This document shows, piece by piece, positions 2,688 to 37,715 of a stretch of 64,000 nucleotides of DNA (position 1 is the stretch's first letter; the number at the start of each line of letters is the position of its first letter). Origin of the DNA: Dysidea avara (Eukaryota > Porifera > Demospongiae > Dictyoceratida > Dysideidae); assembly GCF_963678975.1 (NCBI RefSeq), contig NC_089272.1, forward strand, positions 62,508,574 through 62,572,573. The letters run 5' to 3'. A program made the position numbers and the translations under genes. The notes beneath the pieces were generated by a model. That model was not told the origin of the DNA, searched no databases, and saw only the letters and a program-made list of their open reading frames with translations.

Positions 2688-5600
2688 ATGTCAAGTCGCC
2701 ACTCCCATTGTGGTTCATACCGTCAACCATTGTTTGAAGGTCCAGTACAAGTGAAGTCTAGTCACCAGGTGAGTTAAGTGTGTACATCCATGTTATGTGT
2801 GTATGCATGAAGTTAAAACTTAACACATCTAAACAAAACTATGGGTATGTAGACATGTAGTTGTGTACATGTGGCCCACGTAGCTCTTTGTATGGCACAA
2901 TATGTTAGCTAGACTGCAGTGCTTGGAAACATGAGAGCTTACCATGTTACTCTGTTTATGCTGAATGTGCTGAATGTTTCAAAACTAATGACCTTTCAGA
3001 TGTTTCCAATATTCATTACATTCACAGGAATGGAGGAAAAGGTATCTGAAAACTTTTTGTGGTATCAGTGAAGGTGAACCAGCAAAGTTAATAGTCTACA
3101 AAGACAAAATATCCACACTTGATGCAAAATCTGTGATAAAGGAGATTCTATTTACAAATGTGAAGCGTATCAACTACACAAAGGATCGAGATAGGAGAAT
3201 TATTGACATAGAGCTGGTCAGCCAGGACAGAGATCAGTTTTCATTCTATGCAGAATCTTCTTTCTCAGATTTCACTATTTGGTTCAAATATTGTGGCTTT
3301 CTCCGTACCATACCATGTTACCCAATTCCAGATGTGCCACAAGAGAATTTGATCCCACAGCAGGCAATGAATCAGTATACTGACCCGAAGAAATTTAATG
3401 CCAGTAAGTTGTGAACAAATATACAGAAACATATACATGTTGCATGCAATTATTGTAAGAGAATTGTGACATTTGTGGCTTCCACAACCTGTTAATATTT
3501 ACTTGTCATTGCTATCACACAAGGTATTCAAGACCATGCATGAAAAGTAGTGGTAGTTTTCATATGTTGCCATTGCCATACAGTTTTATTCCACTGTGCC
3601 AGTAGAGTTTAGTGTGGGGGAGAACAGTGTGGGTTAGGGATGATCTCATCCCACTAACACTCCCATGACTTTTATACACTGTGTGTGTGGGTATTGGGCA
3701 ATAAATACTATTAAATAAGGCAATCATGAATGTGACAATTGAGGATAGTCATTTGTTACTAAATTTATATACTAAATATTTTTTTTGTACAGAGTTCATA
3801 TGGGTAGTTCACATACTTGTGGAAGGAATTGCAGAAAGTAACACTACCTTGGCTGGGCTATGTGTTATCGCAATTCGTGGCAGTGATGCCACATTCAATG
3901 TGCATGATTTTCGCACTGGGAAAAACTTGCTGTCTTGGGATCGAGGAGCAATAAGGCGATCTGGTTGCATGAAGTCACTTGTGTTCTTAGAGGCGGGAAG
4001 GAGATGTACAGGAGGTCCAGGATTGTTGTGGATGTATCATCCGATATCACAGGCTATGACACTGCGAAAATCCCTTCAAGAGTAAGTTACTTTATATGGT
4101 ATCAAATAACACCATGCCATATGGGGATTTTCATTTTATTGCAGTTTTTTGTACTATGGTCCTGAAAGTGTCACTCAACCAAGAGCAACAATCCAGATTT
4201 CATGTGATGCTCCAACTAGCAAAAGCTATCTTGATGATGAAATGTTTGACTCATTCCCACCATCTCATGAAGACCGGCACAGAGACCTTCCATCAGCAGC
4301 TGTTTCAAACATGAGAATACAACCTCTGCCACCACTGTTTGAGTATAACTTTCACGGTGCTCCTGACTCCCAACGTGCAGGGAATAAGTCAGTGTCATCC
4401 CAAGCCTCGGCAGACTCACAGTGTTCAAGTGGTTACTATTCTGAAAACAGTAGCTTGTCAGATTGTCGCAATGATGCTTTTCTGTCAAACACTAGCAAAC
4501 CACTTTATCCCAAGGGAACCTGCAAGCTTCTCAGGTGCAATGAAAAGAAACATAGAGGAAGCAGCAGCAGTACTGAAGATGACAGATGTCCTTCAACATT
4601 GAAACATTCAAAATATCACTGTACGTCAACCAAGTCATGTACTCACTCTTATCAGAACTGCTTCACGCATTCTTCTACAACCAATAACTATGAGAATGCC
4701 TCATCATTGAATACATCAGATGCTCCTCCTCTTCCACCAAAACCTATGAAGAAGAAAACTCCCATATATGAAAATCAAAGCACGTCTACCTTGTTTTCTA
4801 AAGCTTCTTCATCCAGTAGTAAACATCACAGAAGACAACATGAGCAGAATCTGTCATGTGAGCCACCACCACATATGCCAGAAAGATCAAACAGGTCTGT
4901 ACAACAGACTAAGAATCTGTTTTGCTTTGAGGCTGCATATAACAGTTAATGAGTATATGGGTGCACAAAATTTGTTCATACTTCACAATTCATAACTTTT
5001 ATTCAAATAAAAGTATGCTATGGCCAGGGCCGCCCACAGGGGGGGGGGGGGGGCAACTGGGGCATTTTGCCCCGGGCCCCAGCCTGAAAGGGGCCCCAGG
5101 AGGCACCATGAAGGGCCCCCTGAATACCTGTTTAAAAGATCGATATACTCTAATAGAACAGTCAGATCTAAATACTCTAATAATTAGAGCAGTCACAGTA
5201 TTCTTCAGAGGAGCAGTGTAGCAGGCTTATAGATAAGGAGATATGGTTGGTGATGGGTAGCTATTTGTGACCTTTTTTTTTTTTTTTTTTTTTTTTTTTG
5301 GTCTTTAACTTACAGCTTGGGTGAAGGGCCCCACTTTAACTCTTTGCCCTGGGCCCCTTAATTTCTCTGGGCGGCCCTGGCTATGGCCATGAAATTTTTG
5401 ATTTTCTGCCCCTTATACAAAATTAACTGGAGTTACAAGGAAATTTTGGCAAAAGAAAAACTCAATGAATCCACACTTCGTCAGCATTGAGGTTGATGAA
5501 AATCAAGATATCATAGGTTAAACACATATTTTATAGGGGTGCTTATGGATGCTTAAATTTAAACTGACTTGTCAAATTTGTCTAAATTTCGTAAAATGTA

Positions 5601-8434
5601 GTAATGCAGAATGTATAGATAGACTACTTCGATACTGAGATATGACCTATTCAAGTGAAGAGGTATGGTTTCTACCTTATACATAGTTTTTGCTGACTGG
5701 GCACATAAGTATGGCTTATGGTATTGGACCACAGCAAGATGAAATACTTGAATTTCATTGGCTACTTACAGGTATCTAAATCCTGTAGATCCCTTATTTA
5801 TGTCCCTGTCTCCGGGGTGATATAAAACACGGCAATACACATGGGTATTTAACTGGATACCATGGGCATTTAACTGGATAGCAAGTGCCATTACAAACAG
5901 GGAGGTGTATTGGGCTTTTTTATAACTAATGGATGCTGCATGTCTTGTGTCACAAGCAGCTGTGAAGGTACAACAAGCAGCAGTTAAGGTACAACAATGA
6001 GCTGTGGTCTAAATAAGTTAGAGATAGAAACACAAGCTTCTATGGAATTTATAAAAACCCTCAGGCCCTATAGTAACTAGTGTTGTTTTGGTTCTAAAGT
6101 ACTAGAATTAAATACACTTTTAGTACAGCTATTTAATTTTAGTTTTGGTACACTAGAACTAAACTAAATTTATGAATAATTTTGGTTCAAAAATTATAAC
6201 TAAACTAAAATTCTTTAAACTTCTGGTTCAAAAACTAAAACTAAACCAAAACCTTTTCAACTTTGAGTTCAAGAACTGGAACTAACTAAAAGGTTTCATG
6301 TAATCCTATGCCTAAAAGATTATTCCTATTAGCACTTTTCTTTGAAGATGCTGATGCTTGCAAATGATACACATACCACAAATGTGTTACCATTGATTCT
6401 GCTGATTAAGCATTTTTCTTTCTGCTATTTAAACTCAATTATTTAAAGCATTTGTTTATTTGTATAAAATGGCAAGTGGAGGTGGAAGACCAAAGTCAAG
6501 TGGAGTATGGGGCTACTTTAGGTTTGATAAGATCAATGACAAAAGTGTGTGTGATGTAAAAACTAATGATGGTTCAGTTTGTGGTAAAGAATTTAAAGGC
6601 CAGTCTTGATGAACGTGCCTGGGACAACTTTACTGCAACACAGTGGAAGCATTTAGAATTCATTCAACAACTACTTCAGCCATTTGCTCACCACACTAAC
6701 ATCACTTCAGCTGAAAACAGCACAACCATTGCAATGGTTATTCCTGTCCTTAAAGAACTAAACCTGCACTTTGAAGAAATGTGCAAAACCAGTGGAGTAG
6801 CTGTAGTATCCAGGAGAATGCTTATCGATTTAAACCGAAGATTTATGTTTGCTACCAATCCTGATATGCCTAATTTTGATCCAGTTTATGTATAGCAACC
6901 ACTTTGGTAAACCCTGCATATCGTAAGATACTGAATGATAAACAGCTAGAAAAGGCAAAAGAGTTCATATTACAACTAATGCATATTAACAGACACGCTG
7001 AAGAAACGGAACAATCGTCACCAGGAAGTCAAGAAAATGACAATGAAGAAATTAATTTGCCAATTTCAAATGATGATCAAGATGGACGGCCCCCACCTGC
7101 AAAACACTTTAAACATTTAGATCAAGTCAGTAGACTGCTAGATGAAGAAGACGGTGAACAGGACCATCAAGAGAACATATAAACCACAATATCGCTGGAG
7201 GAGCAACAATTGAATCGGTACATAGAATCCAGAGTTAGTAAAGATGATAAAAAATCGACCCTTTTGAGTTTTGGCAGAAGAAAAAAAAACGAGTTTCCAG
7301 ATCTGGCTTTAACTGCTTGCAAAATTCTCGCAACACCTGCATCATCAGCTCCTATTGAGAGAATTTTTTTCTTCAGGGGGAGAGGTTACCAGAGGTAAAA
7401 GAAATCGTTTAACAAACCATAATCTAGAACGAGAGATATTCTTGCGAAAGAACAAAATGTACATTCAAATATAATTTAAATTCTTGCTGTGCAATAGATG
7501 TGTGAAAGTGTGCAACTGGATATATTAATAACCTCTGTATGGCAAGGGTTGAATTTGGTTTCACTGATTCAGATTCAGATTGTAATAAAAACTGAACATA
7601 CTAGTAGTACACTAACTAAAACTAACTAAAATTGGGTACTGCAACTAATACTAACTAAAATTACAGAAGAGCTGGGTACTAGAACTAATACTAACTAAAA
7701 CTATAGTTAGCTGAGAGTACTAGAACTAAAACCAACTAAAATTGCAGGTATTTAATGATACTAGAACTAAACTAACTAAAACTACAGCTAACTAATAGTA
7801 CTAAAACTAGAATCAAACTAAAAGGATTTAGCAGTACTAAAACAACACTAATAGTAACGCCCTCGCTTTACTTGGGCACCACAACACAGGGCCTTTTGGG
7901 TTTCTAAATTCTGCAGAACCTTGTGTTTCAATGTCTAACTATTATCTAGAAACAATGTTGTTGCATTTAGACAATCAACATAAGCAGCTGTGTGTGACTG
8001 AACATACGTAGTAATAATTTACTTGTGTTTACAGGTCATATTCAGATTCAGAAGCCAGTAGTCTTCCTCCTACTCTGCCAAAGAATCAAATGGAATTGAT
8101 TGCTCTTCAGAGGTGCTCCCCAATTATAGTGGAGAAGTTAAATATTCCGGCTATTATCCCACACTTACTGGCAAAAGAGATGTTGACATACAGGGATACT
8201 CAAATTATGCTAAACCAATGCAACCCTGATGTTGATAAGGCTACACATCTTATCTGCTTTGTACTACCTAGACAAGGTGATGGTTTTTTTGAGAAATTTC
8301 TTCTTTGTCTTTGTGAATCAAAACTGGGAACTGGGCATAGTGACATTGTAAAATCATTAACAGCTACACTGAGTGAGGTTAAAGGAACTATTTCTGGACC
8401 TGGGAGGCCTGCTTCTGTAGAGACTATTTCTTAG
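2688..8434 (+). CDS. DOK-like adaptor with C-terminal CARD (gene 1)
   Basis: Five coding exons with GT-AG borders and consistent phases: 2688-2768, 3028-3403, 3793-4081, 4145-4894, 8035-8434; 631 aa. Exons 1-2 encode a PH domain (start GPVQVKS..EWRKRYLKTFCG). Exon 3 is an IRS/DOK-type PTB domain with the family signature IRRSG...LEAGRRCTGGPG, the region whose arginines bind phosphotyrosine. Exon 4 is a Ser-rich, low-complexity tail with an SH3-ligand stretch (APPLPPKPMKKK) and two YEN sites (NYENAS, IYENQ) of the type bound by Grb2-class SH2 domains. Exon 5 is a CARD (LICFVLPRQGDGFFEKFLLCL, then GTGHSDIV). DOK proteins are membrane-recruited kinase-substrate adaptors and CARDs make homotypic signalling contacts, so a cytoplasmic adaptor linking the two is inferred. 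If intron 4 is retained, translation stops at 4949, giving a CARD-less form. The last intron holds a MITE and a hAT transposon. Confidence 0.85.
5017..5387. mobile_element. hAT-like MITE in gene 1 intron 4
   Basis: Element 5025-5379 with inverted ends CAGGGCCGCCCA and an 8-bp target duplication GCTATGGC (5017-5024 and 5380-5387). It contains poly-G and poly-T runs and the recurrent core ATACTCTAATAGAACAGTCA. The matching intron of gene 2 (about 26850-26880) has an empty site, so the insertion postdates the gene duplication. Confidence 0.85.
6070..7858 (+). mobile_element. Decayed autonomous hAT transposon
   Basis: Element 6078-7850 flanked by a perfect 8-bp duplication ATAGTAAC (6070-6077 and 7851-7858). 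Ends are TAGTGTTGTTTT and its inverse. Both subterminal regions are packed with variants of ACTAGAACTAAA/ACTAACTAAAA, as expected for transposase-binding repeats. It sits in the last intron of gene 1 in the same orientation as the gene. Confidence 0.9.
6469..7475 (+). pseudogene. hAT transposase remnant (BED finger and dimerisation region)
   Basis: Starts at an ATG (6469) with a short BED-type zinc-finger beginning (GVWGYFRF...VCDVK). It jumps frame into a hAT catalytic-core piece (AWDNFTATQWKHLEFIQQLL, 6566-6895), an acidic linker (6904-7182), and the C-terminal hAT dimerisation region (PASSAPIERIFF, about 7320-7440), where a further frameshift occurs. Most of the central catalytic domain is missing, so it cannot encode active transposase. 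Within the element bounded at 6078-7850. Confidence 0.85.
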
Positions 8435-12350: not shown

Positions 12351-13238
12351 TAGGCCTGGGCCTATTATGCTGGCATAATTAGAGGAATAATGGGTGATTA
12401 ATTTTTCTAGGATAATTCTAGAATAATCGGAAGCTGTTGGGAATATTACAAGAATAATCGGCCAACTTTGTTGGAGATATCCTGGAGGACACTCAAGCGG
12501 TTCAGATTAAAGGTTCTGATTCACAGTATATGCATGTATGTTTAGCCCTTTTGGTTGATGTGTTTCTTCAATGACAGTTAAAACGTCCTAAAAATTTAAG
12601 CTGGTAATAGCCTGGTATCACATACTGTATATAAATAAATGCACATATACAGCAATAATTATACACAATTTACATACCACTGTAGATAAGGTTAACAGAC
12701 AAGGAAGCATTCAGGGTATAGTTGGTATTGAATTCCCAATTAATAGAACTGGAACCCACAATTATAAATATTCAACAGCATTGCACGTGTAGACAGTGAT
12801 TATGCAATCTCTACTTGTAGCAAAAGAAGCACTAGCTATTTGGAATTGCTCATACTGAATTCAGATTAAAGCTGCCACAAACATACCAAGAATTGTCACC
12901 CACCCACCCTCCCTTGGCTAATCATTGGCATCAACCTTCACTCAACCAATGCAATCATACGTGCTAGCACACCTGGTATAAATACATTATTTCGCATTTT
13001 GGGCACCCAGAGCATGGCACAGTCAGGCTGCTTGATGTGATTAAGTACTGGCTATACTATAGCAATAGAAATACAGCAGCTAACTTCAGGTCACTAGGGC
13101 AAATGCAGCACCTAGCATCTAGCAATGTCCTGGGCTGCCTCATTTATCCCCAAACTATGCATAGCTCTAATGCATGCCATTATGCAGTAGTGCATGCAGG
13201 CCAGCTGACGTAGGATGTTAGGTAAGAATAATAGGCCT
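12351..13238. mobile_element. Possible element related to the 48.07 kb repeat
   Basis: The left part begins TAGGCCTGGGCCTATTATGC, resembling the end of the well-bounded element at 48068 (TAGGCACCAGTCTATTATGC). A partial inverse (AATAATAGGCCT) lies at 13227-13238. No target duplication found. The right border is uncertain because a non-LTR remnant follows directly. Confidence 0.35.
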
Positions 13239-13243
13239 CATGC

Positions 13244-13885
13244 TTGGGAATAATGGCCCTAAACATTTTCAAAGATGTCCAAGAAAAGCAAGACTTGTTA
13301 GATAAAAGAATACAAGAAATAGAAGACAAATTAAAGAATGAAAAAGCCAATGCTCCTCAGTCTACCTCTCCAGTACCATTACCTACAACTAGGTTACCTC
13401 CAGTAACCAGTCTTCCAGATAAAAAGTTTAACGTAGTTGTGTATGGCATTCCTGAGTCACCTCCAAATACTGATAGGCAATCTCGCCAAAAGCACGATGT
13501 AGAACATGTACTCAAGTCCTTATCAGACTATGATGATGAAATCAAATCCTCAGCTGTCAAAGACATCTATCGTCTTGGAAAATTTAGAGACAACAGAACT
13601 AAGCCAAGACCATTACTAGTTAAATTTCTCCGCTCTATTGATGCCAGCAATGTACTTAGGAACAAATCAAAGCTCAAGTCAGGAATCTTTTTGAAATCCG
13701 ATCTGTCTGCTGATGAACGAGCAAAGGAGTCACTGCTATTATTGAAGGAGCGGTGGTCTCTAATCCAAAAGGGTGTTGAACGTAAGCGAATGACATTGCG
13801 GAACTTTAGCATTTTTGTTGATAACCAGGCCCATTGCAAAGTAGAAGGATCTCAGTTGGTATTCCAATCTCCTAGCTCCAATTGA
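13244..13885 (+). pseudogene. Non-LTR retrotransposon ORF1-like protein
   Basis: An open frame of 213 codons: N-terminal coiled coil (KDVQEKQDLLDKRIQEIEDK), a proline-rich linker, then an RNA-recognition-like region (KKFNVVVYGIPESP...DIYRLGKF) typical of ORF1 proteins of CR1/L1-type elements. The frame is open, but the adjoining ORF2 is broken and no 5' end is evident, so I treat it as part of a dead copy. The first in-frame ATG is at about 13253. Confidence 0.7.
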
Positions 13886-13974
13886 CTACTATGAACTACT
13901 AACTTTTATACCCAGAATAACTCAAATTTAACTTCCTTACACAATAACCCTGATTCTTCACACAATCTCAAAAT

Positions 13975-15780
13975 TATTAGTCTTAACTGCCATAGTATCA
14001 GAAGTGCATCAAAAAGAGCTAACCTTTTGGTCCTTTTAAATGAACACAAAGCCAACATCGTTATAGTATGTGAATCTCATCTAGATGAAACCTTCACCTC
14101 CTCTGAAATATTACCATCATCCTACAACATATTCAGAAGGGACAGAACCTTAGGTGGAGGAGGAGTATTCATTGGTTTAAAGAACCATCTCACTGCCATG
14201 GTTGAGAACTTATCAATTAACAGTGATGTCGAATTTATTTGGGTGAAACTACTAACACAGGAATCACAGACTGTTTTCATATGTTCTTTTATAGACCACC
14301 AAACTGTGAAATGGAGCCTTTATTATCATTAAATGAATCTTTAAAGGTAATAGCTGAAAAAGAAGCTAATTATCCTGTTATAATCTTAGGAGGAGATTTT
14401 AATCTACCTCATATATCATGGGACAATGGATGTGGTCGGGTTAATCCCAGCCCAGCTTATGGCCTACAAGTTAATAATACCTTATTAGATACAGTCAATG
14501 ATTTTCACTTGGAACAATTAGTACATGAAAATACTCATGATAATAATCACACTCTGGATCTGATCTTTTGTACTAATCCAGCTAGAGTTACATCTGTTTC
14601 TGTCATACCAGGGATATCTGATCATGAAGCTGTATTTTTTTGTTTTGATATGAAACCCCTCTGGTACCAAAACTCCAGTCACAGTGTCTATTTGTATCAC
14701 AGAGGAGATTTTGACAGAATAAGAGAGCGTGTATATATCAATTTTTCAACAGAATTTCTTATCCTCAGAGCCATATGCTAAATCTGTTGAAACAAACTGG
14801 ACAGAATTCAAGAATACCATTAAGCAACTTACGGATGAATTTATTCCTCAAAAACAAGTACAATCATCTAATCACATTCCATGGTTAAATCGTCAAATCA
14901 AGTACAAAATTAAAGAATGCAAACAACTTTACAATATTGCTAAAAGATCACAAACTCCCAGTGCCTGGGCATCTTATCATAAAATCAAGAATGAGATAAC
15001 TAAGGAAATCAGAACAGCCCACAGTAACTATCAGTGCCAGCTATTTGAGAATGACTCCAACAATACCTCTTAAAAGTTTTGGAAATATATCAAGAGCTTA
15101 AGGAAAGATCACGTAGGGGTATCAACACTATCTTCTGGTGGTAAACAAGTAACTGATAGTTTCGACAAGGCCAAACTTTTAAACAACCAGTTTCACTCAG
15201 TATTTACAAATGAAAATCTCACTGACATCCCAACTGCAGAATCTTTATATCCATCTATGCCTGAAATATAATTTTCTACTGAAGGAATTTTTAAATTACT
15301 TTGCGAACTAGCCACAAATAAATCACCTGGCCCAGATGAAATTCTATCAATGGTACTTAAACAGTGTTCTGCAGAAATCGCACCAATACTCCAAGTCATC
15401 TTTACCCAATCTATGTCAACTGGAACTGTTCCTGGTGATTGGCTTACTGCAAATGTTACACCAGTTTGTCCTATTTATCATCTGATGACCGAAATCAGTG
15501 TATACACTCTAGATCAGGAGAAGGTACAGAGGGCCACAAAATTGATCCATGATCTTCAAAACTGCATATACAATGATTGCCCCACTACTTTACCATATGA
15601 CTTAAATACCGTAGACTACATGGAGATAATTATGATAATGCTCTACCGGCTATTGCACAACCAATTCAATCTAGACACATCCGAGACTTATTATTGCAAC
15701 TGTGGCTACGTAATTGTGAAACAGACCAGGCTTTGGACCTTCTTTTACCACAATAAGGCTTCTTTTTTTCAACTGAATTA
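13975..15780 (+). pseudogene. Non-LTR retrotransposon ORF2: endonuclease plus deleted reverse transcriptase
   Basis: An apurinic-type endonuclease domain is spread over two frames: SLNCHSIRS start near 13980, CESHLDE, then after a frameshift near 14290 GGDFNLPHISWD and GISDHEAV. A linker follows (14729-15073, with a stop), then the reverse-transcriptase beginning NKSPGPDE (near 15320). Around 15480 the frame passes straight into the extreme C-terminal motif QRATKLIHDL, so nearly the whole catalytic palm is deleted. CR1/L2-like by order of domains. No poly-A tail found. Confidence 0.8.
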
Positions 15781-16019
15781 GAAGCCAATCAAATTAGCTA
15801 CCATCGTATCCATATCCCAAGGCACTTACGAGAAAGTAGCTAAATAGTTGTATTCAGGCTCCTGCATAAAACATCTGGCATCAGAGGGTATATGTATACA
15901 GATGTATATAACCTGCGATTTAAACTCCACTACATTATACACGTTGACTAATACGGTGATCACGTGACTAAAGTGAATTGACGGCTAGGCCACTGTAGCT
16001 ATACATCATGACAGTTATA

Positions 16020-19658: not shown

Positions 19659-22600
19659 ATGTCAAGCTGCACTTATTGTAGCCCCCGTCAACCATTATTT
19701 GAAGGACCAGTACAAGTGAAGTCTTGTCAACATGTGAGTTGCATGTGCATATGTATGTATAAGATCACCTGCTTAGGTGTGTGTTTGACATAATGTGCTC
19801 ACAGTAATTCTATTAATCTACATTGGTGTGCTAATATACAACCGTATGTACACAGTGATGTGCAAGCAAAAAAAGGGATGCAGTAATATAATAATACTGT
19901 ATGAATGAATTGCAGTTTGTATCTGAACTTGTCAATTGGAGAACACAAAACATATTGTAATGCACTAGTATACTTGGTAACATGGCAGCTTACCACATTA
20001 CTGTTTGGATGTTTCAAAACTAATGACCTTTACTAATATTCATCACATTCACAGGAATGGAGAAAAAAGTACCTACAAGCTTTTTGTGGTATCAGTGAAG
20101 CTGAACCAGCAAAGTTAATGGTCTACAAAGACAAAGGATCCACACTTGATGGAAAATCTGTGATACAGGAGATTCTATTTACAGATGTGAAGCGTATCAA
20201 CTACACAAAGGATCGAGATAGGAGAATTATTGATGTAGAGCTGGTCAGCCAGGATAGAGATCAGTTTTCATTCTATGCAGAATCTTCTTTCTCAGATTTC
20301 ACTGTTTGGTTCAAATATTGTGGCTTTCTCTGTACCATTCCATGTTACCCGATTCCAGATGTGCCACAAGAGAATTTGATCTCAGAACAGGAAATGAATC
20401 AGTATACTGACCCTAAAAAATTTGATGCCAGTAAGTTGTGAACACAGTGCATGTATAATATATACATGTACATAAACATAATTAAAAGCTGCAATTAGTA
20501 TAGGTAATCATAGGCGGCGGAAAGGGGGGGGGCTAGGGGGCTAAAGCCCCCCCTAGGTCTGCTGAGGGGGGGCTTAGCCCCCCCTCAGAATGATATCACA
20601 CCGAAATTATCTTTCTTGGAGTGGGGCTGAAAACCGTGATAAAGATCGAGATACTCTAATAGAGCAGTCACACTAATAAAGTAGTCAGTGTGTAGCGAGC
20701 TATGTAAGGATTTTTATGTAGTTTATCAGCTAGAAATGGTAGCTGGTGAGGTGGAAAGCTCTTGTGAGCTGGTTGTGACCTTTTTTTTTTTTTTTTTTTT
20801 TTTTTTGGTCTCACCTTACCAAACTATAGAAAGAAGTCTGGGTCAGCTCAGCGAAGCCCCCCCTCATATCAACTACTTCCTCCACCGCTGTAGGTAATCA
20901 CACACATTTGAGTGTAATTAGGGAATAATTGTATGAGTAACAATCAAAATTGCACGAGGCAAAGCCGAGTGCAATTTTGGCTGTTACGAGTACAATTATT
21001 CCATAATTACACGAAAATGCGTGATTGCCTATTAATCACATAGTGACCACCCTTCGTGGTTTGTAGTACACATCTATCATAGGCGGCGGAAAGGGGGGGA
21101 CTAGGGGGCTAAAGCCCCCCCTAGGTCTGCTGAGGGGGGGCTTAGCCCCCCCTCAGAATGATATCACACCGAAATTATCTTTCTTGGAGTGGGGCTGAAA
21201 ACCGTGATAAAGATCGAGATACTCTAATAGAGCAGTCACTCTAATAAAGTAATCAGTGTGTAGCGAGCTATGTAAGGATTTTTATGTAGTTTATCAGCTA
21301 GAAATGATAGCTGGTGAGGTGGAAAGCTGTTGTGAGTTCGTTGTGACCTTTTTTTTTTTTTTTTTTTTTTGGTCTCACCTTACCAAACTATAGAAATAAG
21401 TCTGGGTCAGCTCAGCGGAGCCCCCCCTCATATCAACTACTTCCTCCGCCGCTGACATCTATCCAGTTCTATGTGGCCATTAACTTCTACCAGGTGATTG
21501 CATCATCCTTCCTTGTATTACATCATTTGTTGTTGCACTTAAAAGGCTTTGTGCATCAGGGATTCTGATTGGCTACTCAAAATGTCTACATATGTTACAC
21601 TTAAAAGGCTTCTATTGTCAGCTTCTTTGATTGGCTATTCATCATATCACTTTCTTGTTGTACTTAAAAGGTTTCTGTTATTCTGCTATTTTATTGGCTA
21701 CTTTACAGTGCAATTACAGAAACAAGGCCATGCGATTTGGGATTAATTGCACTCCTACTATTGAGACTAATGTATGGCAAATTAAATCACTATGTAATTA
21801 GTACTAGTAATAGCATGGGTAGCAGTGAAATTAGGGATAAATACCACGAGTGTTGTATTGGAAATGGGGATAAATTTCACGAGGTGAAGCCGAGTGAAAT
21901 TTACCATTTCCGATACAACACTCGTGGTATTTATCCCAAATTTCACTGCTATACCCATGCTATTCCCAGTTAATACCATACTCGCTGCATATACGCATGC
22001 TGCACATTAGCGTTGCTATGTACGCAACTTGTCGCTATGTACTAAACACACGTCAACACTAATTGGCGCTACATTGTTAACGTAAATTCTAGCCAATGAA
22101 ATTGCAATTACAACTTTTTCACTGCTACCAGTGAAATACAGGATAAATTCCACTGCTACTATTGAGACTTTTGTATGGGCAGTGAAACAGGTATGGTATT
22201 ATTAAGAAAATTGTGATGTTCATGGCTTCTGTTATTATTAATAAGTTTGTCAGCAGCGTAAACACACAAGACCATGCATGATAGCAAGAGTAAATAATGG
22301 GAGATTTATTTACTCTTGCATTATTTTTAGCATTACAGTATTTACTCTTGATGATAGTACTAGTTCTTAGTATGTTGGCATTGCCTTACAGTTTTATTGT
22401 ACCGTGCATAGGCAGATCTAGGAGACACTGCCAGTGGCGTAGCCAGGAAAAAATTTTTACTGAGGCAATGTTTATACATTGACCAAATTGAGAGGGTCTG
22501 CTTCTGACTCAAACTGATTCACAAATATTTTGAAGTATGGGTGGTACAGCATTTGCAGGTTGACTATCTGGTTGGAAGGAGGAAACTGTTTCAGAAGACT

Positions 22601-25600
22601 GGGCATTTTTCTACATGTCATAAGTAATGCTCCAGCATAGTTAATGCTACAGTATACCATGCTTCAACTATTAGACTAGTTTAATTGCATTCAATACAAC
22701 TTACTGCAAAGATATTTTGAGCGGCCCGGGCCAGGCCAACCATACATGGACTGCAACGGAGGTCATAGTCATGCACACTACTTTTTTATTGATCTGATGT
22801 GTTGTTTAAGTCAGAGATAATTATCTCTTTCATGTAATGCTCAACTGCATGTGCTAAGCATGTCAAGATAGGAAGTTTGGGGGAATGCTCCCTCAAGGAA
22901 ATTTTTGAAATATTGCTTTGAAATGGCTTTTTTTATTGTAGCTGCTAATGCATATTAATATACATGATCAATTAACTCAATGTAATGCCATGCAGTTGAC
23001 TCGTTAGAACTTTTGAAAAGTAATGTAAAGACAATTAACATAGATGTAAATGATCAAGCAGTGTAATGAGAACAGCGGCAATAATCTGTATTGAATGCTC
23101 TATTAGAAAATATTACAATGACTGCTCTATTAGAGTATCTTGATCTTTTACAAATTTAAGCCACACAAAATCTGTAGTACTAAACAGGGCTGGAGCCTAT
23201 GGTGACATGGTGCTGGACCACGTTTCAGCTACTGGGGTACAGTAATGCTGTCTAGTAACGTTTGAGTAGAAAATTCGGGATGCCAAAACTCAGGCCTGCT
23301 CAGCCTGTTGTTGAGCATTTTTACCAAGGCAGCTGCCTCGGTTGCCTCAATGGTAGCTATACCACTGAATGCTAGGAGAGAATGAGGGGCGCAAGGTGTT
23401 ATAGGATAAAATCCACTAAGAAGAGAAGAATAGAACTTGGAACTCTAGTAAACAAGTTATAATTATTCATTTACATAACTTTTTGTTTGGTGTAGCTAGG
23501 GCATACACTTTCTAAGACTCTATAGGATATCTTCTGGGAGCATTTTTTCATAGATATTTAGCTAGCAAATGCATGCTTTGAAAACATAAATTGGTTAGAC
23601 AAACCTGTTTGATGGTAAAGTGTACTAAACATTAGGTAGTATTAGAGTAGTGACTGCTGTATTAGAGTATCTTGATCTTTAGCACAAAATTTCAATTTAT
23701 TAACTCATTTGTCTAGTTTATAACTGTCAAATGCATTTATAAGTGGTCTTCTATTTGCCTATTGGCTTTCTACAGTGTGAATGCATGATTCTTGTTTCTG
23801 GTGCCAATATAGTCCTGCAAATTAATGGGTGGCAAGAGAGGGTCGGATGGGGGGATCCCCTATTGGCCCCCCTCAGATCTGCCTATGGCACCACATATCC
23901 TAGTACAGTTCAGTGGGGGGAGAACAGTGTGGCTTGAGGATGATCGCATCCCACTATCCCTCCCATGACTTGTATACACTATATGTGACCAGATTTGCAA
24001 AAAGGTACCTTTTTCACACACACAATTTGACCCATTTTTTGAACTTTGAAGCTTCATAACGTTTTGATCATTTCGTATAATTGGCTGAAATTTCCATGAA
24101 TGTAGCTACAGTATTTGGCTGCAGTTGGATACTTAGAGCAAGTTAATCAGTGTAAGAAGTCAATTGTTACATCATTTTGTTTGCTAGTATGTAAAATGTG
24201 TTGAAAAGGTACTTTTTCGCAAATCCAGTCACAATTGTGTGGGTATTGGGCAATAAACACAGTTAAATAAGGCAACTATGAATGTGACAATTGAGGTAGG
24301 AATCTTGGTTCTATTGTAAAACCGCAATATTTTGATGAAACGATATCAGTATCGTCTAAAATTCTTGAAAACGATATTATCGTGATATCATGATTACCGC
24401 AGTGTTCTCCAATAATATTGTATTAACTATTGTAACACGTAGTAGAACATCACACTGCTGCTGTTGTAGTTCCAGGAAAGAGAAGGATACAGGGAAGATC
24501 CAGATTATAGATCCAAGTAATAGAACAAGACTCTAATAGAGCAGTCACCCATATAATAGAGCAGTCAAGTACACTCTAATAAAGTAATTATGATAGTAGA
24601 TTGTGATAAGAAACTTGATGATTTGGATTTTTGAATATTTCTACACATTGTAGCAGTAAATTATTATAAAATGTGGTGATGCAAAACTGAGTATGAGCCT
24701 CTATTGCCAGTCAGCGGTCTTTTAGTAATGGTACATGCCATACGTATGTTATTTTATATACATCCATTCATGCTGCTGCAGGTTATGCCACTTGGTGTAG
24801 TTTCATAGCTAGTAGAGCACCTGTCAAAATATGAAAAGAATATCGTGATAATTAGTAATATCGTGATATATTCCCATGATATATCGTGATAGTAAAATTT
24901 CAATACTGCCCATCCCTATATTAAGGATATTCATTTGTCACTAAATTTATATAGTAAATATTTTTTGTACAGAGTTCATGTGGGTAGTTCACATACTTGT
25001 GGAAGGAGTTGCAGAAAGTAACACTACCTTGGCTGGGCTACGTGTTATCACAATTCGTGGCAGTGATGCCACATTCAATGTGCATGACTTTCATACCGGG
25101 AAACACTTGCTGTCTTGGGATCAAGGAGCAATAAGGCAATCTGGTTGTCTGAAGTCACTTGTGTTTTTAGAGGCGGGAAGGAGATGTACAGGAGGTCCAG
25201 GATTGTTGTGGATGCATCATCCGATATCACAGGCTATGATACTGCGAAAATCCCTTCAAGAGTAAGTTACTTTATATGGTATCAAATAACACCATGCCAT
25301 ATGGGGATTTTTATTTTATTGCAGTTTTCTGTACTATGGTCCTGAAAGTGTCACTCAACCAAGAGCAACAACCCAGATTTCATGTGATGCTCCAACTAGC
25401 AAAAGCTATCTTAATAATAAAATGTTTGACTCATTCCCACCATCTCATGAAGACCGGCACAAAGACCTTCTATCAGCAGCTGTTTCAAGCATGAGAATAC
25501 AACCACTGCCACCACTGTATGAGTACAACTTTCATGGTGTTTCTGACTCCCAACGTGCCGGGATTAAGTCAGTGTCATCCCAAGCCTCAGCAGACTCACA

Positions 25601-27711
25601 ATATTCAAGTGGTTACTATTCTGAAAACAGTAGCTTGTCAGATTGTCGCAATGATGCTTTTTTGTCAAACACTAGCAAACCACTTTATCCCAAGGGAACC
25701 TGCAAGCTTCTCAGGTGCAATGAAAAGAAGCATAGAGAAAGCAGCAGCAGTACTGAAGATGACAAATGTCCTTCAGCATTGAAACATTCAAAGTGTATGT
25801 CAACCAAATCATGTACTCACTCGTATCAGAACTGCTTCAAACATTCTTCTACAACCAATAACTATGAGAATGCCTCATCATTGAATACATCAGATGCTCC
25901 TCCCCTTCCACCAAAACCTATGAAGAAGAAAACTCCCATATATGAAAACCGAGACACACCTACATTGTTTTCTTCATCCAGTAGTAAACATCACAGAAGA
26001 CAACATAATGAGCAGGGTCTGTCATGTGAACCGCCACCACATATGCCAGAAAGACCAAACAGGTCTGTACCACAGACTACAACTTAAATAAGAATCTGTT
26101 TTGGTTGCATATAACAGTTAATGAGTTTATGGGATTAGATAAATCTTTTATTTCTATGTTCTAAATTGATGATAGCTAGTTTAGAGCACTGTTGGTGAGA
26201 GTTGAAAACAGCAATTGATGGATAAGTCAGTATAATCATAGAAAAGCCAACAAAGATTTAGTACGCATAGATATGGTCCATATTACTGTATTCACTAGCA
26301 GGGGCGGATCCAGACTTATAGAAAGGGGGGGTCAAAAATGAACTAAGGCACTACACTGTCTCTGGTTTGATAAGGTGAGACCAAAAAAAAAACAAAAGGT
26401 CACAGCCAGCTGACAATAGCTGCCCACCTCACCAACCACACATTTATAGCTGATAAAGTACATAAAAATCCTTAAATAGCTCACTACACACTGTTCTAAT
26501 ACTGTGACTGCTTTGTTAGAGTGACTGCTCTATTAGAGTATCTCGATCTTGGTATACTAAAAATTTTTGGAGGGGGGTCAAGAGCCCCTTTGACTCCCCC
26601 CCCCCCCCCCCACTGTATCCACCCCTGTTCACTAGGTAGCAGTGTCACAATCAATTCAAGGCCTGAAGGTTGTTTTCGAATGTAAATTATCATCAAATCT
26701 TTTATCAGTACATCTCAAAGTTACTTTAGTGTGTAATTATCCAGAGTTACTTTACCAGAGAATATTGAATAGTAAATATGTGCAATGATAGAGCATGTAT
26801 AGGCACACAAAATTTGTTCATATTTCACAATTGGTAACTTTATTCAAACTGCACTATATGGCCGTTAAATTTCTAATTTTTCCGCTCCCCTTATACAAAA
26901 CTAACTGGAGTTTATGAGGAAATTTTGACAAAAGGAAAGCTCGATGAATCCACCACTTCATCAGCATTGAAGAATTTTAATGTTGATATAAATCAAGAAA
27001 TCATAGATTAAACACAAACTTTTAGGAACACTTATGGATGTTTGATAAAGTAAAATTATAGGAATTTAATTGATTCGTCAAATTCATCATTTTTTCTTTC
27101 ATCAAAATTTTGTGTCCTACAGTATAACAAATTGCAGATAGAGTACGTATTTCAGTGGTGAGGTCCTGTTCAGGTGAAGGGATATATTTCGTGTCCTTAT
27201 ACATACTTACCGAGCATATAATTATAATAACTATTTGTGCATATGGTACTAGAAACAATGTTGGTGTATTTAAACTGTCAACGTAGTAACAATAGTTTAC
27301 TTGTGTTACAGGTCACATTCAGACTCAGAAGCCAGTAGTCTTCCTCCTACTCTGTCAAAGAATCAAATGGAATTGATTGCTCTTCAGAGGTGCTCCCCAA
27401 TCATAGTGGAGAAGTTAAATATTCCAGCTATTGTGCCACACCTGCTGGCAAAAGAGATGTTAACATACAGGGATACTCAAATTATGCTAAACCAAAGCAA
27501 CCCTGACGTTGATAAAGCTATGCACCTTATCTGCTTTGTACTACCTAGACAAGGTGATGGCTTTTTTGAGAAATTTCTTCTTTGTCTTTGTGAATCAAAA
27601 CTGGGAACTGGGCATAGTGACATTGTAAAATCACTAACAGCTACACTGAGTGAGGTTAAAGGAACTATTTCTGGGCCTGTGAGGCCTACATTTGTAGACA
27701 CTATTCCATAG
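19659..27711 (+). CDS. DOK-like adaptor with C-terminal CARD (gene 2)
   Basis: Duplicate of gene 1 with the same five coding exons and intron phases: 19659-19733, 20055-20430, 24973-25261, 25325-26062, 27312-27711; 625 aa. Domain order is PH, IRS-type PTB, Ser/Pro-rich tail, CARD. The tail keeps the SH3 ligand APPLPPKPMKKK and the two YEN sites. Differences from gene 1 include IRQSG in place of IRRSG just before the LEAGRRC motif, so one basic residue of the PTB signature is lost, and a few codons deleted in the tail. Intron 2 has expanded to about 4.5 kb through insertion of at least five elements. Retention of intron 4 would stop translation at 26087, before the CARD. Expected to act as gene 1 does, possibly with altered phosphotyrosine binding (inference). 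Confidence 0.85.
20501..20899. mobile_element. 9-bp-TSD MITE, copy 1
   Basis: Element 20510-20890, ends ATAGGCGGCGGAAAG and (inverse) CAGCGGTGGAGGAAG, 9-bp duplication TAGGTAATC at 20501-20509 and 20891-20899. A nine-base duplication points to a Mutator-like family. The interior has mirrored runs of GGGGGGCTTAGCCCCCC, the core ATACTCTAATAGAGCAGTCA and a poly-T run. Inserted at the outer edge of a palindrome arm (20891-21031). Confidence 0.88.
20891..21031. repeat. Large palindrome with conserved loop, copy A
   Basis: Arms of about 60 nt (TAGGTAATCACACACATTT against AAATGCGTGATTGCCTA, and GTAACAATCAAAATTGCAC against its inverse) around the 13-nt loop GAGGCAAAGCCGA at 20956-20968. The left arm begins at the target duplication of MITE copy 1, so the MITE landed in the arm. 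Confidence 0.8.
21070..21463. mobile_element. 9-bp-TSD MITE, copy 2
   Basis: Element 21079-21454, ends ATAGGCGGCGGAAAG and (inverse) CAGCGGCGGAGGAAG, duplication ACATCTATC on both sides. More than 90 percent alike to copy 1, in the same orientation, starting 188 bp after copy 1 ends. Same interior core and poly-T run. Confidence 0.9.
21535..21710. repeat. Tandem repeat, about 60 bp, three diverged units
   Basis: Three successive units each contain CTTAAAAGG(C/T)TT and, some 25 bases later, TGATTGGCTA or a close variant (starts near 21538, 21599, 21661). No coding sense. In intron 2 of gene 2. Confidence 0.7.
21808..21965. repeat. Large palindrome with conserved loop, copy B
   Basis: Arms of about 70 nt (AATAGCATGGGTAGCAGTGA ... 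GGGATAAATACCACGAGTGT against their inverse) around the 13-nt loop GAGGTGAAGCCGA at 21881-21893. The arms are unrelated to copy A, but the loop differs by only two bases. Confidence 0.85.
22418..23379. mobile_element. Non-autonomous hAT-like element
   Basis: Element 22426-23371 between 8-bp duplications CTAGGAGA. Ends contain CAGTGGCGTAGCCA (from 22432) and the inverse of CAGTGGTATAGCTACC. Contains TGACTGCTCTATTAGAGTAT (near 23120) and a G/C mirror patch. No recognisable protein. In intron 2 of gene 2. Confidence 0.75.
23984..24233. mobile_element. 250-bp inverted-repeat element (TGTGACC ends)
   Basis: Ends TGTGACCAGATTTGCAAAA and (inverse of right end) TGTGACTGGATTTGCGAAAA. Same family as the longer element at 29262. 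The equivalent intron of gene 1 (near 3680) lacks it, so insertion followed duplication. Target duplication not clear. Confidence 0.75.
24289..24926. mobile_element. hAT-like element with GATATCGTGATAT-type repeats
   Basis: Element about 24297-24918. The inverse of its right end reads TAGGGATGGGCAGTATTG, and the flanks AATTGAGG/TATTAAGG are a decayed 8-bp duplication (6 of 8). The uninterrupted site is visible in gene 1 at about 3737-3750 (ACAATTGAGGATAGTCATTT), which fixes the borders. Contains two copies of TAATAGAGCAGTCA. Confidence 0.8.
26291..26635. mobile_element. hAT-like MITE in gene 2 intron 4
   Basis: Element 26299-26627, ends CAGGGGCGGATCCAGA and (inverse) CAGGGGTGGATACAG, perfect 8-bp duplication TTCACTAG. 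The interior shares the poly-A and TGACTGCTCTATTAGAGTAT block with the 9-bp-TSD MITEs although the ends differ. Confidence 0.9.
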
Positions 27712-30118: not shown

Positions 30119-30119
30119 T

Positions 30120-30720
<601 letters not shown>

Positions 30721-31827: not shown

Positions 31828-32328
31828 AGTTATACAACGTTCACTCGCAGCGGCGGAGGAAGTAGTTGATATGAGGGGGGGGCTCCGCTGGGCTGACCCA
31901 GACTTATTTCTATAGTTTGGTAAGGTGAGACCAAAAAAAAAAAAAAAAAAAAAGGTCACAACCAACTGACAAGAGTTTTCCACCTCACCAGCTACCATTT
32001 CTAGCTGATAAACTACATAAAAATCCTTACATAGCTCACTGCACACTGACTACTTTATTAGAGTGACTGCTCTATTAGAGTATCTCGATCTTTATCACGG
32101 TCTTCAAGAAAGATAATTTCGTTTTGATATCATTCTGAGGGGGGGCTAAGCCCCCCCTCAACAGACCGAAGGGGGGCTTTAGCCCCCTAGCCCCCCCCTT
32201 TCCGCCGCCTATGTTCACTCGTGCTCTGCCTGTATAAACGCACTTGCCTTCGGGCCTGACGGCCCTCAGGCTCGTGCGTTTATATCAGGCAGAGCACTCG
32301 TGGCCGTTGTATAACTATATAATATGAC
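31828..32328. repeat. Palindrome interrupted by a MITE
   Basis: Removing the MITE joins AGTTATACAACG (31828-31840 region) to GTGCTCTGCCTGTATAAACG, which pairs with the inverse on the right (CGTTTATATCAGGCAGAGCA then CCGTTGTATAACT, to about 32318). Arms about 45 nt. The loop of about 30 nt is GC-rich and itself partly self-complementary. Confidence 0.75.
31839..32221. mobile_element. 9-bp-TSD MITE, copy 3 (inverted)
   Basis: Element 31848-32212, same family as copies 1-2 but in opposite orientation, with 9-bp duplication GTTCACTCG. Interior carries poly-A, TGACTGCTCTATTAGAGTAT and the GGGGGGCTTTAGCCCCC mirror. It interrupts the left arm of the palindrome that continues to about 32325. Confidence 0.9.
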
Positions 32329-32329
32329 G

Positions 32330-33420: not shown

Positions 33421-33563
33421 GCGCGCGTTTCTGACTAACTCCGTTTCGGTACGCGCGGCGCAAGGCGAACTATATAAATACTGTTCGGTTTTCAGCTTCT
33501 GATGAAATCACTACAGCAGTGAAGGATTGGGCAAGGGTTAGCACATAAGGAAGCGACGAGATC

Positions 33564-36500
33564 ATGACAGGACGCGTGATACATTCTGGACCTATTTATG
33601 TTAAAGGGAAAGTAAGTTTCTCGCATGCAGCCACTCCTTGCATACTAGACGCTGCCATGGGCACTCTCTCAGTACTACGCCGTGCACTGCAGGCATACTG
33701 TGCATATAGCACGGTTGGAATTGGATCTCCTGATCTGAACTTTTTCCTCTTTTTATATTCTTTAATAATGTAATTTAATTATAGTGTAAGTCTTGCCAGG
33801 GCTCTTCCGATACTTAACTTATCGTCATGACTACTACTCTGTGGGCCTCGCTGTAAATGCATGGTAGCTACCCTCCTAGGCCCCTGTATGTATATATTGT
33901 CTTGATCAATAAGACGTCTTCTTTCTTCTGTCCTAATTAAATAAACTTAGTAGACAATGAAAACACGGGTAGCTAAACCGGCTGATCACTCAAAGGCTTG
34001 CTGTCAGACCTTCAGTGCTATAGTCACTGTATTATAAAAGCAGTAACAATGCATTCTTAAATATGACTATTCGTTGTACTTTCCCAACAATTCACGATGC
34101 ACAAGTACATAGCTAGTAATTAATTATACATTAGGCCAAGACAAATAAATTTTATGTTTCACGGATGCGGCGGGTCAAAATTTCCGGTTTCCAAAATAAT
34201 GTAAATCACGTGACCATTTCAACATGGCTGGTGAATGTTCTTTGTCGATAAACTCGTCCTTAAATGAGTGGTTGAGTGTTGTATTAAAGCGAGGCTTAGT
34301 AATTATTAAGAATAGAGTGATAGTACAATGTTCCTGCGAAGAAACGTTTAGAGCTCTTGTTAGAAAAGTCGCACCGGAATTGGAAGAGGAAAGAGTGAAA
34401 AGGGTGGTGATTTCTGCAGATGAAAAGTTTGTTGACGTCCACGAAGTAGCTATGGAGGCACCTATCAGTGTTTGTAGGTTATTTAATTGTAAACATTGCT
34501 GTATATACTTCGAAAGTGCTGATTCCACGTCAGCATATGATAAAATCATAAAATCAATATTATACATAAACTCTAATTCCGTTAGTGTATAAACTTGACA
34601 GGCACCATTCTTTTTTTATTTTTCGACCTGCCGGGTCACCTTTGAGGGGAAAATAATCCATGAAACATAAGATTTGTTTGGTATGGCCTTATGTAGCTAT
34701 GCATGCAGCCTTGGAATGATATATTTTAATGTTGTATGGGGTTGCACCATGTTTATTGCATGTAGCTAAGTATGCTAAACCAGTGCTGCATACTGTAACT
34801 GAACAGTGCACGAATACTACTACAGCAGTTATATACGTAATACATTATTATAATTGTCCGCATTACAGAGCAAGACAACACACTTACGGGCTTCTTGTCA
34901 AGGCTCAACCCAGCCAGCCAAACTAGAGCTTTTTACAAATGAGACCATGGACAAGAAGTTACTGGACATATTATTCACTGAAGTAAAGAAGATAGAAGTG
35001 GTTGATGAAGAGTCTAAGAGGTTCATTGCTGTGACAACACAGAATGATGAAAGTCTAACATTTTACGTCAAATCACAAACTGAGCATAAAAAATGGGTGG
35101 ACTTTTGCCGTCTATTGGCCATTATTCCTACCTACTTCATCCCAGATCCATCACGTTACTCTTTACTACAGATGGAATTCTATAATAAAGAATTATCCAT
35201 TCAGAGACATAATGCAGGTATAGCACTGTAACTATCTTTGTATGTGACACTGTCTTATGTGATTCCTTGTTTACCACATTACAACTTATCTTGTGACAGA
35301 ACAATTTGCTAAACAACATCTATAGTCATGGGAATATTTAGCTTTTCCCTTATTTCTTTGGGGGTGGGGGAAGTTATACATTTACTGTAGCTGCTTTAGG
35401 GAAAATCTGAGACAGGCATAAACAATTGATAAGAAACAGACTTTAAGTCTGGCCAGTGCGGTTTACTTTATTGTACAAATATGCACCAATATTTATTCAT
35501 CATTTTGTAAGCTGGCCTTACATCTGTATAGAAGAACAAAGGTGCCTACAAAATTTCATTTATTTCATTTCCTTACAGAGGAAGCTTGGGTGGTGTACAT
35601 TATTAATGAAGGCGTGGGGCACACCTTGGGAAGTAAAGGATTTCACATCATCACCATTGGAAAAGATTCTACACTCAATATTCTTGACTATGACACTGAG
35701 GCAGTTCAAGTCACTTGGGATCAGGATAAAATCAGGAGATCAGGTTGTGTAGAATCTTTGGTGTTTGTTGAAGCTGGAAGAAGATGTCATGGTGGCCCAG
35801 GAATGTTGTGGATGTATTGCCCTGGATTTGCTTTGAGTTTTAGAAGGTGTCTCCATAGGTGAGATCATTAACCAAAACGATATATGTGGTTTTCATGTGG
35901 TCAGACAGGGGATTGTTGTGGTAGCAATGTTGTTAGTGATAAGCGTAAACAACATACACTAAACATGTTTGTCTCATTGACCTTATATCCAACAAAAAAT
36001 CCCACTTGTATTATTTTTTTCTGTAGTTTCCTTTTTGATAAAGCAAAAAGAGGTCACCCTATATCACCCAGTGCGACTGTTAACTCAGGAGCTGACTTGG
36101 TTTCCATTGATTCCAGCATCAGAGCAAGCCGTGATGGACTCAATGACTTTAATAACAGTTATGAGCAGAATGGCTCTTTTTCCAGTCAGCCTCACCCAAG
36201 TCCCCAAGACCACAGGAGACTTACATGTAGCAGCAGTTTGCCAAGTGAGGTCTCTGCCTCGGTAAAATCTCACCCACTACTAAAAATATCAAAAAGTTCA
36301 CCACCACCATTATTATCATATGTACACCCAAAGCCAGGTGAGAAACATATGCAATTCTTCAATCTTTAAAAATCCTTTTTTGCTACAGGTTGCTATCAAG
36401 AGCAAAATGACTATGCAAGTGTTCCTCTGAGCAAGCCACCAATTGTGTCCAGAAAATGTAAGCCTCCTATACCTCCAAGAACCACACGAAAAACATCAAG

Positions 36501-37715
36501 TGAAGAAGACAAGTGCATGAAGAATCCAGCTAGTTCCCATTGTAGTGCTGATGTGTCTATTCCAAGCAGCGAGATCATTACCCGATCTCGATCTCACACT
36601 GTAGATGAATCCAGTGTTAATCCACATGGTGATGGATATCGTAGACGGCTCAAAACACATGAAATGGTTGTACTCAAGGATAAAAACCAAGCAAGGTTTG
36701 TGCATAAAACTCCATGTAATTTAAAATTGTTTTGCATTATAAGCAATTAATCATTTCAGGTTCTGTATAGTTCTGTAAATAGGGTAAAGATAGAAATCCT
36801 GACAAGTGTAGTTCCATCCCTCTAAGTATACATTTGTGAAGTGGCTGGTTTTACTGTACATTTATTATACCTATACATTAATAGGAACATGTTACAGACC
36901 ACCAATCCACTGCACAGTCCTGATCATATTGGGGAACTAGTGCTAATGGGATGTTCAGTAGAGCTACATAATAAGTTGGACATCACCAGTATACTACCAT
37001 TCCTTAGTTCCCAGTATCTGCTAACCCGTGATGACACAGATGTGCTTACAAATGCTACCACCACTAATAATTCTAAGATTAGCCATTTGTTGAAAGTGTT
37101 GCCCAGAAAAGACAAAGGATGGTTTGACAAGTTTTTATACTGTCTTCATCATTCATCTGAAGGAAATGGTCATGCTGGGCTGGTAGAAGAACTGGAGAGT
37201 AAATTTGATGAGCTGAGCAAAACAGCTATCACCAGTGACAAAGAGAAGAATACAAAGGAAGTACCCAAAGAAAATTATGAGGTATGCTAAGCACTATTGT
37301 ATGAGACACCTGTTAACATACGTCACTATTCTCATTTTCAGACTTATCCAATTTATTTGGAATTGCCAAATGAGTCATCTCCATACACAATTAGTGTGAT
37401 GCCAACAGATTTGGTGGAGTCTGTTATGGAGAAAATTGGCAGAAAGCTGAGTGAGTTGTTTGTTAACATATAAAAGACACAAAATTACCTGGGCTGCACA
37501 AGCATGATCAGGGGCTTTACTAACCATTAGATGACATAGCTAAATAACAATAATAAAATTGTGTTCATGTGGTTTAAGTTTGGGTTTTTTTTGTAGACAT
37601 CAAGAATCCTTTTGATATCATACTGAAAGTAGCTGGTTCACAAAGGCTAGATTCAAGGAGGTCTCTTATGGAATCGAAAGTCTTTAGGAACAGCCGTTTA
37701 TCGATGGTACTGTAG
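33564..37715 (+). CDS. DOK-like adaptor with CARD and C-terminal ubiquitin-fold-like module (gene 3)
   Basis: Eight coding exons, all GT-AG and in phase: 33564-33611, 34869-35217, 35579-35858, 36027-36337, 36389-36695, 36885-37281, 37342-37450, 37597-37715; 639 aa. Order: PH domain (SGPIYVKGK..., FTEVKKIEVV), IRS-type PTB (WDQDKIRRSG...VEAGRRCHGGPG), Ser-rich tail with SYEQN, DYASVP and the SH3 ligand KPPIPPRTTRK, CARD (SHLLKVLPRKDKGWFDKFLY, EGNGHAGLV), then about 75 residues starting TYPIYLELPNESSPYTISVM and ending FDIILKVAGSQRL...RLSMVL. The last part resembles the Ras-binding ubiquitin fold of PI3-kinases (pattern ILKVxG then a short acidic/basic loop); this call is tentative. First three exons keep the intron phases of genes 1 and 2. 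A 122-codon element lies in intron 1. Confidence 0.82.
34131..34691 (+). mobile_element. Inverted-repeat element with internal open frame
   Basis: About 560 bp in intron 1 of gene 3, with imperfect inverted ends of about 35 bp (left contains TTTTATGTTTCACGGAT, the inverse of the right contains TCTTATGTTTCATGGAT). Target duplication not resolved. Encloses the open frame 34224-34592. Confidence 0.6.
34224..34592 (+). CDS. Hypothetical 122-aa protein inside an inverted-repeat element
   Basis: Uninterrupted frame from ATG (MAGECSLS) to stop, occupying most of the element at 34131-34691. Has a mixed, protein-like composition with a CNCKHCC-like cysteine cluster (FNCKHCCIYFE) and basic/acidic helices. 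I recognise no family, and the opposite strand is also open over much of it. Could be an accessory gene of the transposon, captured host sequence or a chance frame. Confidence 0.3.
   Translation: MAGECSLSINSSLNEWLSVVLKRGLVIIKNRVIVQCSCEETFRALVRKVAPELEEERVKRVVISADEKFVDVHEVAMEAPISVCRLFNCKHCCIYFESADSTSAYDKIIKSILYINSNSVSV

Follow-up and report, generated by a model that had tools for sequence, protein, structure and literature searches.

We analysed a stretch of 64,000 nucleotides from the genome of the sponge Dysidea avara (C1:62508574-62572573, hereafter the window) and rebuilt three genes from its DNA. In each of them a PH domain, an IRS/DOK-type PTB domain, a Pro/Tyr tail and a CARD are confirmed to lie in one spliced open frame of the gene model. 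We consider these genes, with a probability of about 0.6, to be genuine DOK-CARD adaptors of a locally expanded D. avara family that recruit to CARD assembly. Positions are those of the window; loci elsewhere in the scanned 550.8 Mb assembly are cited as contig:kb (contigs C1, C3, C6, C7, C8 and C10).

Genes 1 and 2 have 5 exons each and encode 631 and 625 amino acid residues, and gene 3 has 8 exons and encodes 639. Each has a single frame open from ATG to stop and every intron is GT-AG, which bears out the claim of an earlier note on this DNA that it holds three complete multi-exon genes with this order of domains. The incoming intron phases of genes 1 and 2 are 0, 0, 1, 2 and 2. At the common junctions the phases of gene 3 agree with these; it differs by a further intron within the tail and by two additional exons that follow the CARD exon. 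Gene 1 is 89% identical to gene 2 and 33% identical to gene 3.

Two NCBI proteins were matched in protein searches, here called P0001 and P0002. P0001, 'uncharacterized protein [Dysidea avara]', is 100% identical to gene 3 over the 93% covered; it starts at residue 43 of gene 3, the first exon and the beginning of exon 2 being missing from it. P0002, also an uncharacterized protein of D. avara, is a paralogue 43% identical to gene 1 over 96%. It maps to the same gene cluster, at C1:62256 kb, and has phases 1, 2 and 2 at its PH/PTB, PTB/tail and tail/CARD junctions. In both NCBI models the tail is joined to the CARD. The agreement of phases among genes 1 to 3 and P0002 upholds the view, already taken in the earlier note, of an inherited gene structure, and the family is far larger than the three genes on which that view was based. 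The exons of the three genes are listed below.

Gene 1, 2688..2768, plus strand: exon 1, start codon and first PH strand (GPVQVK; the motif GP[VI]xV also occurs in genes 2 and 3 and in P0002)
Gene 1, 3028..3403, plus strand: exon 2, remaining PH domain and linker, the PH fold recognised from paralogue P0002
Gene 1, 3793..4081, plus strand: exon 3, IRS/DOK-type PTB domain, Arg207 and Arg222 retained (gene 1 numbering)
Gene 1, 4145..4894, plus strand: exon 4, Pro/Ser/Tyr tail, with PPLPPKP between YENA and YENQ
Gene 1, 8035..8434, plus strand: exon 5, CARD (core strongly constrained in the comparison with gene 2) and stop
Gene 2, 19659..19733, plus strand: exon 1
Gene 2, 20055..20430, plus strand: exon 2, PH domain
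Gene 2, 24973..25261, plus strand: exon 3, PTB domain, arginine pair retained
Gene 2, 25325..26062, plus strand: exon 4, tail, with four YxN motifs and PPLPPKP
Gene 2, 27312..27711, plus strand: exon 5, CARD and stop
Gene 3, 33564..33611, plus strand: exon 1, not in NCBI model P0001
Gene 3, 34869..35217, plus strand: exon 2, PH domain
Gene 3, 35579..35858, plus strand: exon 3, PTB domain, arginine pair retained
Gene 3, 36027..36337, plus strand: exon 4, tail
Gene 3, 36389..36695, plus strand: exon 5, tail, with PPIPPR
Gene 3, 36885..37281, plus strand: exon 6, CARD, the exon of which an AlphaFold2 model was made
Gene 3, 37342..37450, plus strand: exon 7, C-terminal extension without assigned domain, present in P0001
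Gene 3, 37597..37715, plus strand: exon 8, stop

The earlier note had proposed a search with the Pfam profiles for IRS, PH and CARD. CARD (E values of 1.7e-4, 1.4e-4 and 5.8e-6 in genes 1, 2 and 3) and IRS (9.9e-4, 0.074 and 1.1e-4) were matched in each gene, and gene 3 alone passed the curated cut-offs for both; the PH domain remained under its cut-off in all three. Two of the three domains were thus found by sequence in each gene, and the low scores indicate that the domains have diverged. The PH domain was recognised through the structure model of P0002 rather than models of genes 1 to 3. The N-terminal half of P0002 matches the PH-PTB structures of IRS-1 and Dok7; a separate match list for P0002 consists mostly of PH domains and is not informative on the PTB part. 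A profile built from four of the PTB domains matches the structures of IRS-1 (2.1e-6) and Dok1 (7e-4). Like members of the DOK family, the three proteins therefore have an N-terminal PH domain and an IRS-type PTB domain.

The two arginines that contact phosphotyrosine, which we take to be residues 212 and 227 of IRS-1 and 207 and 222 of Dok1, are retained by alignment in genes 1, 2 and 3. The pair is intact in 9 of 17 aligned PTB domains, a set that includes CARD-less genes on C3 and C7. Among the aligned C1 members, at least one of the two is missing from 4 of 5 on the minus strand and from 1 of 8 on the plus strand; the members at C1:62265, 62467 and 62503 kb lack both.

The tails of genes 1 and 2 contain three and four Tyr-x-Asn (YxN) motifs, compared with 0.7 expected from shuffled sequences. 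PxxP motifs also exceed the shuffles in these two tails, and both tails carry PPLPPKP. The tail of gene 3 has PPIPPR, and its PxxP count is not above the shuffles. A tail with candidate SH2 and SH3 sites, as in DOK proteins, can thus be read in the three genes, in gene 3 by PPIPPR only. Tails of the IRS family are rich in YxxM. This motif is absent from the tails of genes 1 to 3 and P0002, which disfavours an IRS-type tail; two copies occur in the CARD-less C3 gene.

The CARD exon of gene 3 was modelled with AlphaFold2, the corresponding exons of genes 1 and 2 entering as alignment rows and not being folded themselves. The predicted structure is a six-helix CARD with a broken helix 1 (helices at 12-22, 24-30, 33-42, 48-55, 61-74, 79-89 and 96-122). 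In a Foldseek search it matches the CARD of Apaf-1, and nearly all of the best 50 of 128 matches are CARD structures. A CARD is also predicted for P0002, so the suspicion that the last exon might not encode a death fold was not borne out in the models. The CARD occupies the last exon in genes 1 and 2, where about 37 residues follow the Pfam match, and the third-last in gene 3. CARD9 and CARMA proteins have an N-terminal CARD and then a coiled coil; membership of that group was rejected on the position of the CARD exon in genes 1 to 3. Between genes 1 and 2, the ratio of nonsynonymous to synonymous substitution rates (dN/dS), based on small counts, is 0.52 for PH, 0.66 for PTB, 0.33 for the tail and 0.10 for the CARD core (14 changes). 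The CARD core is thus the most constrained part and the PTB domain the least, which argues against the CARD being a dead appendage.

In the genome, 18 places match the PTB exon of gene 1; two of these are halves of one broken PTB. Two further PTBs were found by profile only, in fetched sequence, giving 19 DOK-like PTB loci. At 16 of the 19, a CARD exon lies on the same strand, 1.3 to 4.9 kb downstream. Fourteen of these are within C1:62.13-62.55 Mb and two are on C8; they include one C8 CARD with an internal stop and one C1 locus with a broken PTB and pieces of a CARD. The three CARD-less loci are the C3 gene, the C7 gene and a C1 copy with stops. None of 13 loci found with the Pfam IRS profile has a CARD exon within 10 kb, among the CARD matches listed, for which a limited number of candidates was scored. 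At C1:62137 and C1:62163 kb two CARD exons occur in a row, and their joint splicing is putative. Minus- and plus-strand DOK-CARD genes stand head to head at C1 62132/62137, 62159/62163, 62467/62473 (regions 62130-62140, 62156-62167 and 62465-62476 kb) and 62503/gene 1, and the recurrence of this arrangement suggests that a divergent minus/plus gene pair was duplicated. We also compared the divergence of the domains at the 12 loci with PH, PTB and CARD exons all in hand (Mantel test, 5000 permutations). The correlation was 0.744 for PTB and CARD, 0.867 for PH and CARD and 0.708 for PH and PTB, values raised because some of the 12 loci are near copies; in each case 0 of 5000 permutations was as high. 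As judged from these distances, the PH, PTB and CARD exons are shown to have diverged together through many duplications.

A tree was built of 30 CARDs, 15 of them attached to DOK genes. The 15 group with five CARDs that have no PTB in the fetched sequence, these five all coming from C1:62.07-63.44 Mb, with a support of 94/87 that is under the starred level of the tool and a bootstrap that had not settled. The other 10 CARDs (C1 elsewhere, C6, C7 and C10) are on the opposite side of the tree. The DOK-linked CARDs, mixed with the five others, need four label changes, and the CARD may or may not have had a single origin. One of the PTB-less CARD genes is a neighbour in the window:

49750..50868, minus strand: single-exon gene for a CARD plus helical protein; its CARD groups with the DOK-CARD CARDs in the tree and is 41% identical to the CARD of gene 3

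The CARD was probably acquired by exon capture from CARD genes of the same chromosomal neighbourhood, and capture from, or exchange with, such neighbours would be the simplest reading of the tree. The C3 gene (C3:20310-20315 kb), which has PH and PTB domains and six YxN motifs in its tail, is a possible representative of the CARD-less state. No CARD was recognised in the 3,043 bases downstream of it, where the best open stretch scored 4.6 bits (E of 0.09), so that a decayed or diverged CARD is possible.

A second CARD-plus-helical protein is encoded at 57821-59033 on the minus strand, with its CARD seemingly split over two exons; it is 42% identical to that of 49750-50868. Fragments resembling the 3' exons and exon 5 of gene 3, at 42857-43139 and 51605-51715, are probably remains of partial duplication. 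Intron 1 of gene 3 contains an ATG-started open frame of 122 codons (34224-34592, plus strand) with no Pfam match. Broken frames in intron 4 of gene 1 (6467-7470, plus strand) have no counterpart at the gene 2 locus and resemble a hAT-type transposase remnant; one piece was searched and gave no Pfam match. Probable remains of a non-LTR (long terminal repeat) retroelement lie at 13235-15781 on the plus strand, within which 14227-14778 matches Exo_endo_phos_2 (7.4e-13). A long ACGC simple repeat at about 30126-30230 separates genes 2 and 3.

Like the DOK family (Dok1-7, and Dok3 especially), the sponge proteins have PH, then an IRS-type PTB, then a Tyr/Pro tail, with the PTB arginine pair in genes 1 to 3 and, in genes 1 and 2, YxN motifs that we take to be of the Grb2-SH2 type. 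To our knowledge, known DOK proteins end with the tail, whereas in the sponge proteins a CARD follows at the C-terminus, and at two other loci two CARD exons follow one another. The following comparisons draw on the available passages of the cited papers. In mammals, Dok3 binds Card9 and recruits PP1, lowering Card9 activity (PMC7550416), so that there too a DOK adaptor is linked to a CARD signalling protein (PMC10383035, PMC7550416). The link there is between two proteins, however, and passes through the coiled coil of Card9, which follows its N-terminal CARD (PMC10383035); the sponge CARD lies at the C-terminus of the DOK chain itself. A phosphotyrosine-binding domain is likewise fused to a death-fold domain in artificial PTB-DED and SH2-DED chimeras, by which tyrosine-kinase signalling is diverted to apoptosis (Howard et al. 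2003 PNAS, as described in PMC2575513). They differ in being engineered and in using DED instead of CARD, and those passages mention neither a PH domain nor a DOK tail. The amphioxus 'direct connection' immune proteins also have death-fold domains shuffled to new partners, but no DOK/IRS-PTB partner appears in the passages, and the single mention of PTB in that paper is for the artificial chimera (PMC2575513). The genome paper of D. avara gives 39 CARD genes, and DOK and PTB do not occur in the main text as available (PMC12909245). No described DOK-CARD or PTB-CARD protein was found in the titles and abstract openings of the papers listed from open-licence PMC, which agrees with what had been claimed beforehand. 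What is new here, in our view, is that DOK adaptors carry an additional assembly domain at the C-terminus and have multiplied as a cluster.

The most likely function is to bring a CARD scaffold to phosphotyrosine sites and membranes; the artificial PTB-DED chimeras are designed to work in this way, and Dok3-Card9 offers a two-protein comparison. The PH domain would keep the protein at phosphoinositide membranes, and the PTB domain would bind to an activated receptor or kinase substrate at a phosphotyrosine motif. After phosphorylation at Tyr-x-Asn, the tail could recruit Grb2-type SH2 proteins, and its PPLPPK motif SH3 proteins. The crowded C-terminal CARDs would then nucleate or cap CARD assembly with CARD-bearing NLRs, caspases or BCL10-like partners. 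A wiring of receptor tyrosine phosphorylation to CARD assembly is plausible on the sequence features: both PTB arginines in genes 1 to 3 and Tyr-x-Asn in genes 1 and 2 speak for it.

Several results weigh against reading genes 1 to 3 as recruiting DOK-CARD adaptors. The Pfam scores of genes 1 and 2 are below the curated cut-offs, the full-length P0002 model is poor (predicted local distance difference test, pLDDT, 54.0; predicted template modelling score, pTM, 0.32), and the Foldseek E value for the CARD is 0.02 at best among the best 50 of 128 matches. The gene 3 tail has no YxN motif. The PTB domain is weakly constrained between genes 1 and 2 (16 changes), and the loss of at least one arginine from 8 of 17 aligned PTBs speaks against a uniform role. 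In mammals, it is the coiled coil and not the CARD of Card9 that the PH and PTB domains of Dok3 contact (PMC10383035). The tail-CARD fusion is predicted from DNA and gene models. Neither gene 1 nor gene 2 was returned by the protein search, though its database holds NCBI D. avara proteins, and they may be annotated differently there or unannotated. That search was not exhaustive: the gene 3 query missed P0002, the gene 1 query missed P0001, and so did another query that contained gene 3. Since it misses known family members, the absence of genes 1 and 2, as well as of any match from other species, means little.

Further points of this kind concern the splice to the CARD. The donor before the CARD exon is non-consensus in all three genes (GTCTGT in genes 1 and 2, GTTTGT in gene 3), and read-through past it adds 8 to 18 residues before an in-frame stop, giving a CARD-less end. 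CARD-less isoforms are therefore possible, and in gene 1 only an AATAAA lies about 110 bases past the donor. That the locus mainly yields CARD-less DOK proteins in this way, the CARD form being minor or condition-specific, is nevertheless unlikely, given the constraint on the CARD core and the use of the fused form by both NCBI models. Much less probable still is an artefact in which a DOK gene beside a CARD gene has been joined only by prediction. In gene 1 the intron leading to the CARD exon measures 3.1 kb, and in gene 2 it measures 1.2 kb. Genes 1 and 2 have an in-frame Met (NQMEL) immediately ahead of the CARD core, and gene 3 has one as the second residue of its CARD exon, so that a separate start would be possible on sequence alone. 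This explanation is disfavoured by the phase-2 tail/CARD junction of genes 1 to 3 and P0002, by the same order and strand at 16 of 19 loci and by the co-divergence of PH, PTB and CARD, and the fusion is present in two NCBI models.

DOK proteins are mostly negative regulators, and the family could act by inhibition: a CARD held at the membrane would cap CARD assemblies or sequester them, and would draw phosphatases or inhibitory SH2 proteins to them. The precedent is Dok3, which brings PP1 so that Card9 is dephosphorylated and suppressed (PMC7550416). Several members without the phosphotyrosine-contact arginines still have a CARD exon downstream, as might fit decoys. The YxN and PPLPPK motifs of genes 1 and 2, read as recruiting sites, and the paired CARD exons at two other loci point the other way, and neither is decisive. 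We favour a positive recruiting role and regard inhibition, though we think it less likely, as a close and serious rival.

As a rule, several proteins stand between receptor tyrosine kinase signalling and the cell death or inflammation driven by CARDs. If genes 1 to 3 are recruiting DOK-CARD adaptors, they would form such a link naturally within one chain, in many copies in a sponge, and would show both networks joined outside bilaterians. This link would parallel the Dok3-Card9 connection in evolution, and would allow us to ask whether kinase activity alone triggers or blocks CARD assembly. More tentatively, the family may be a natural counterpart of the engineered PTB-death-domain switch, evolved by exon capture in the sponge lineage and expanded into a diversified, tunable kinase-to-CARD locus (a single CARD exon or two, PTBs that have or lack the arginines, divergent pairs) comparable to an immune gene cluster.

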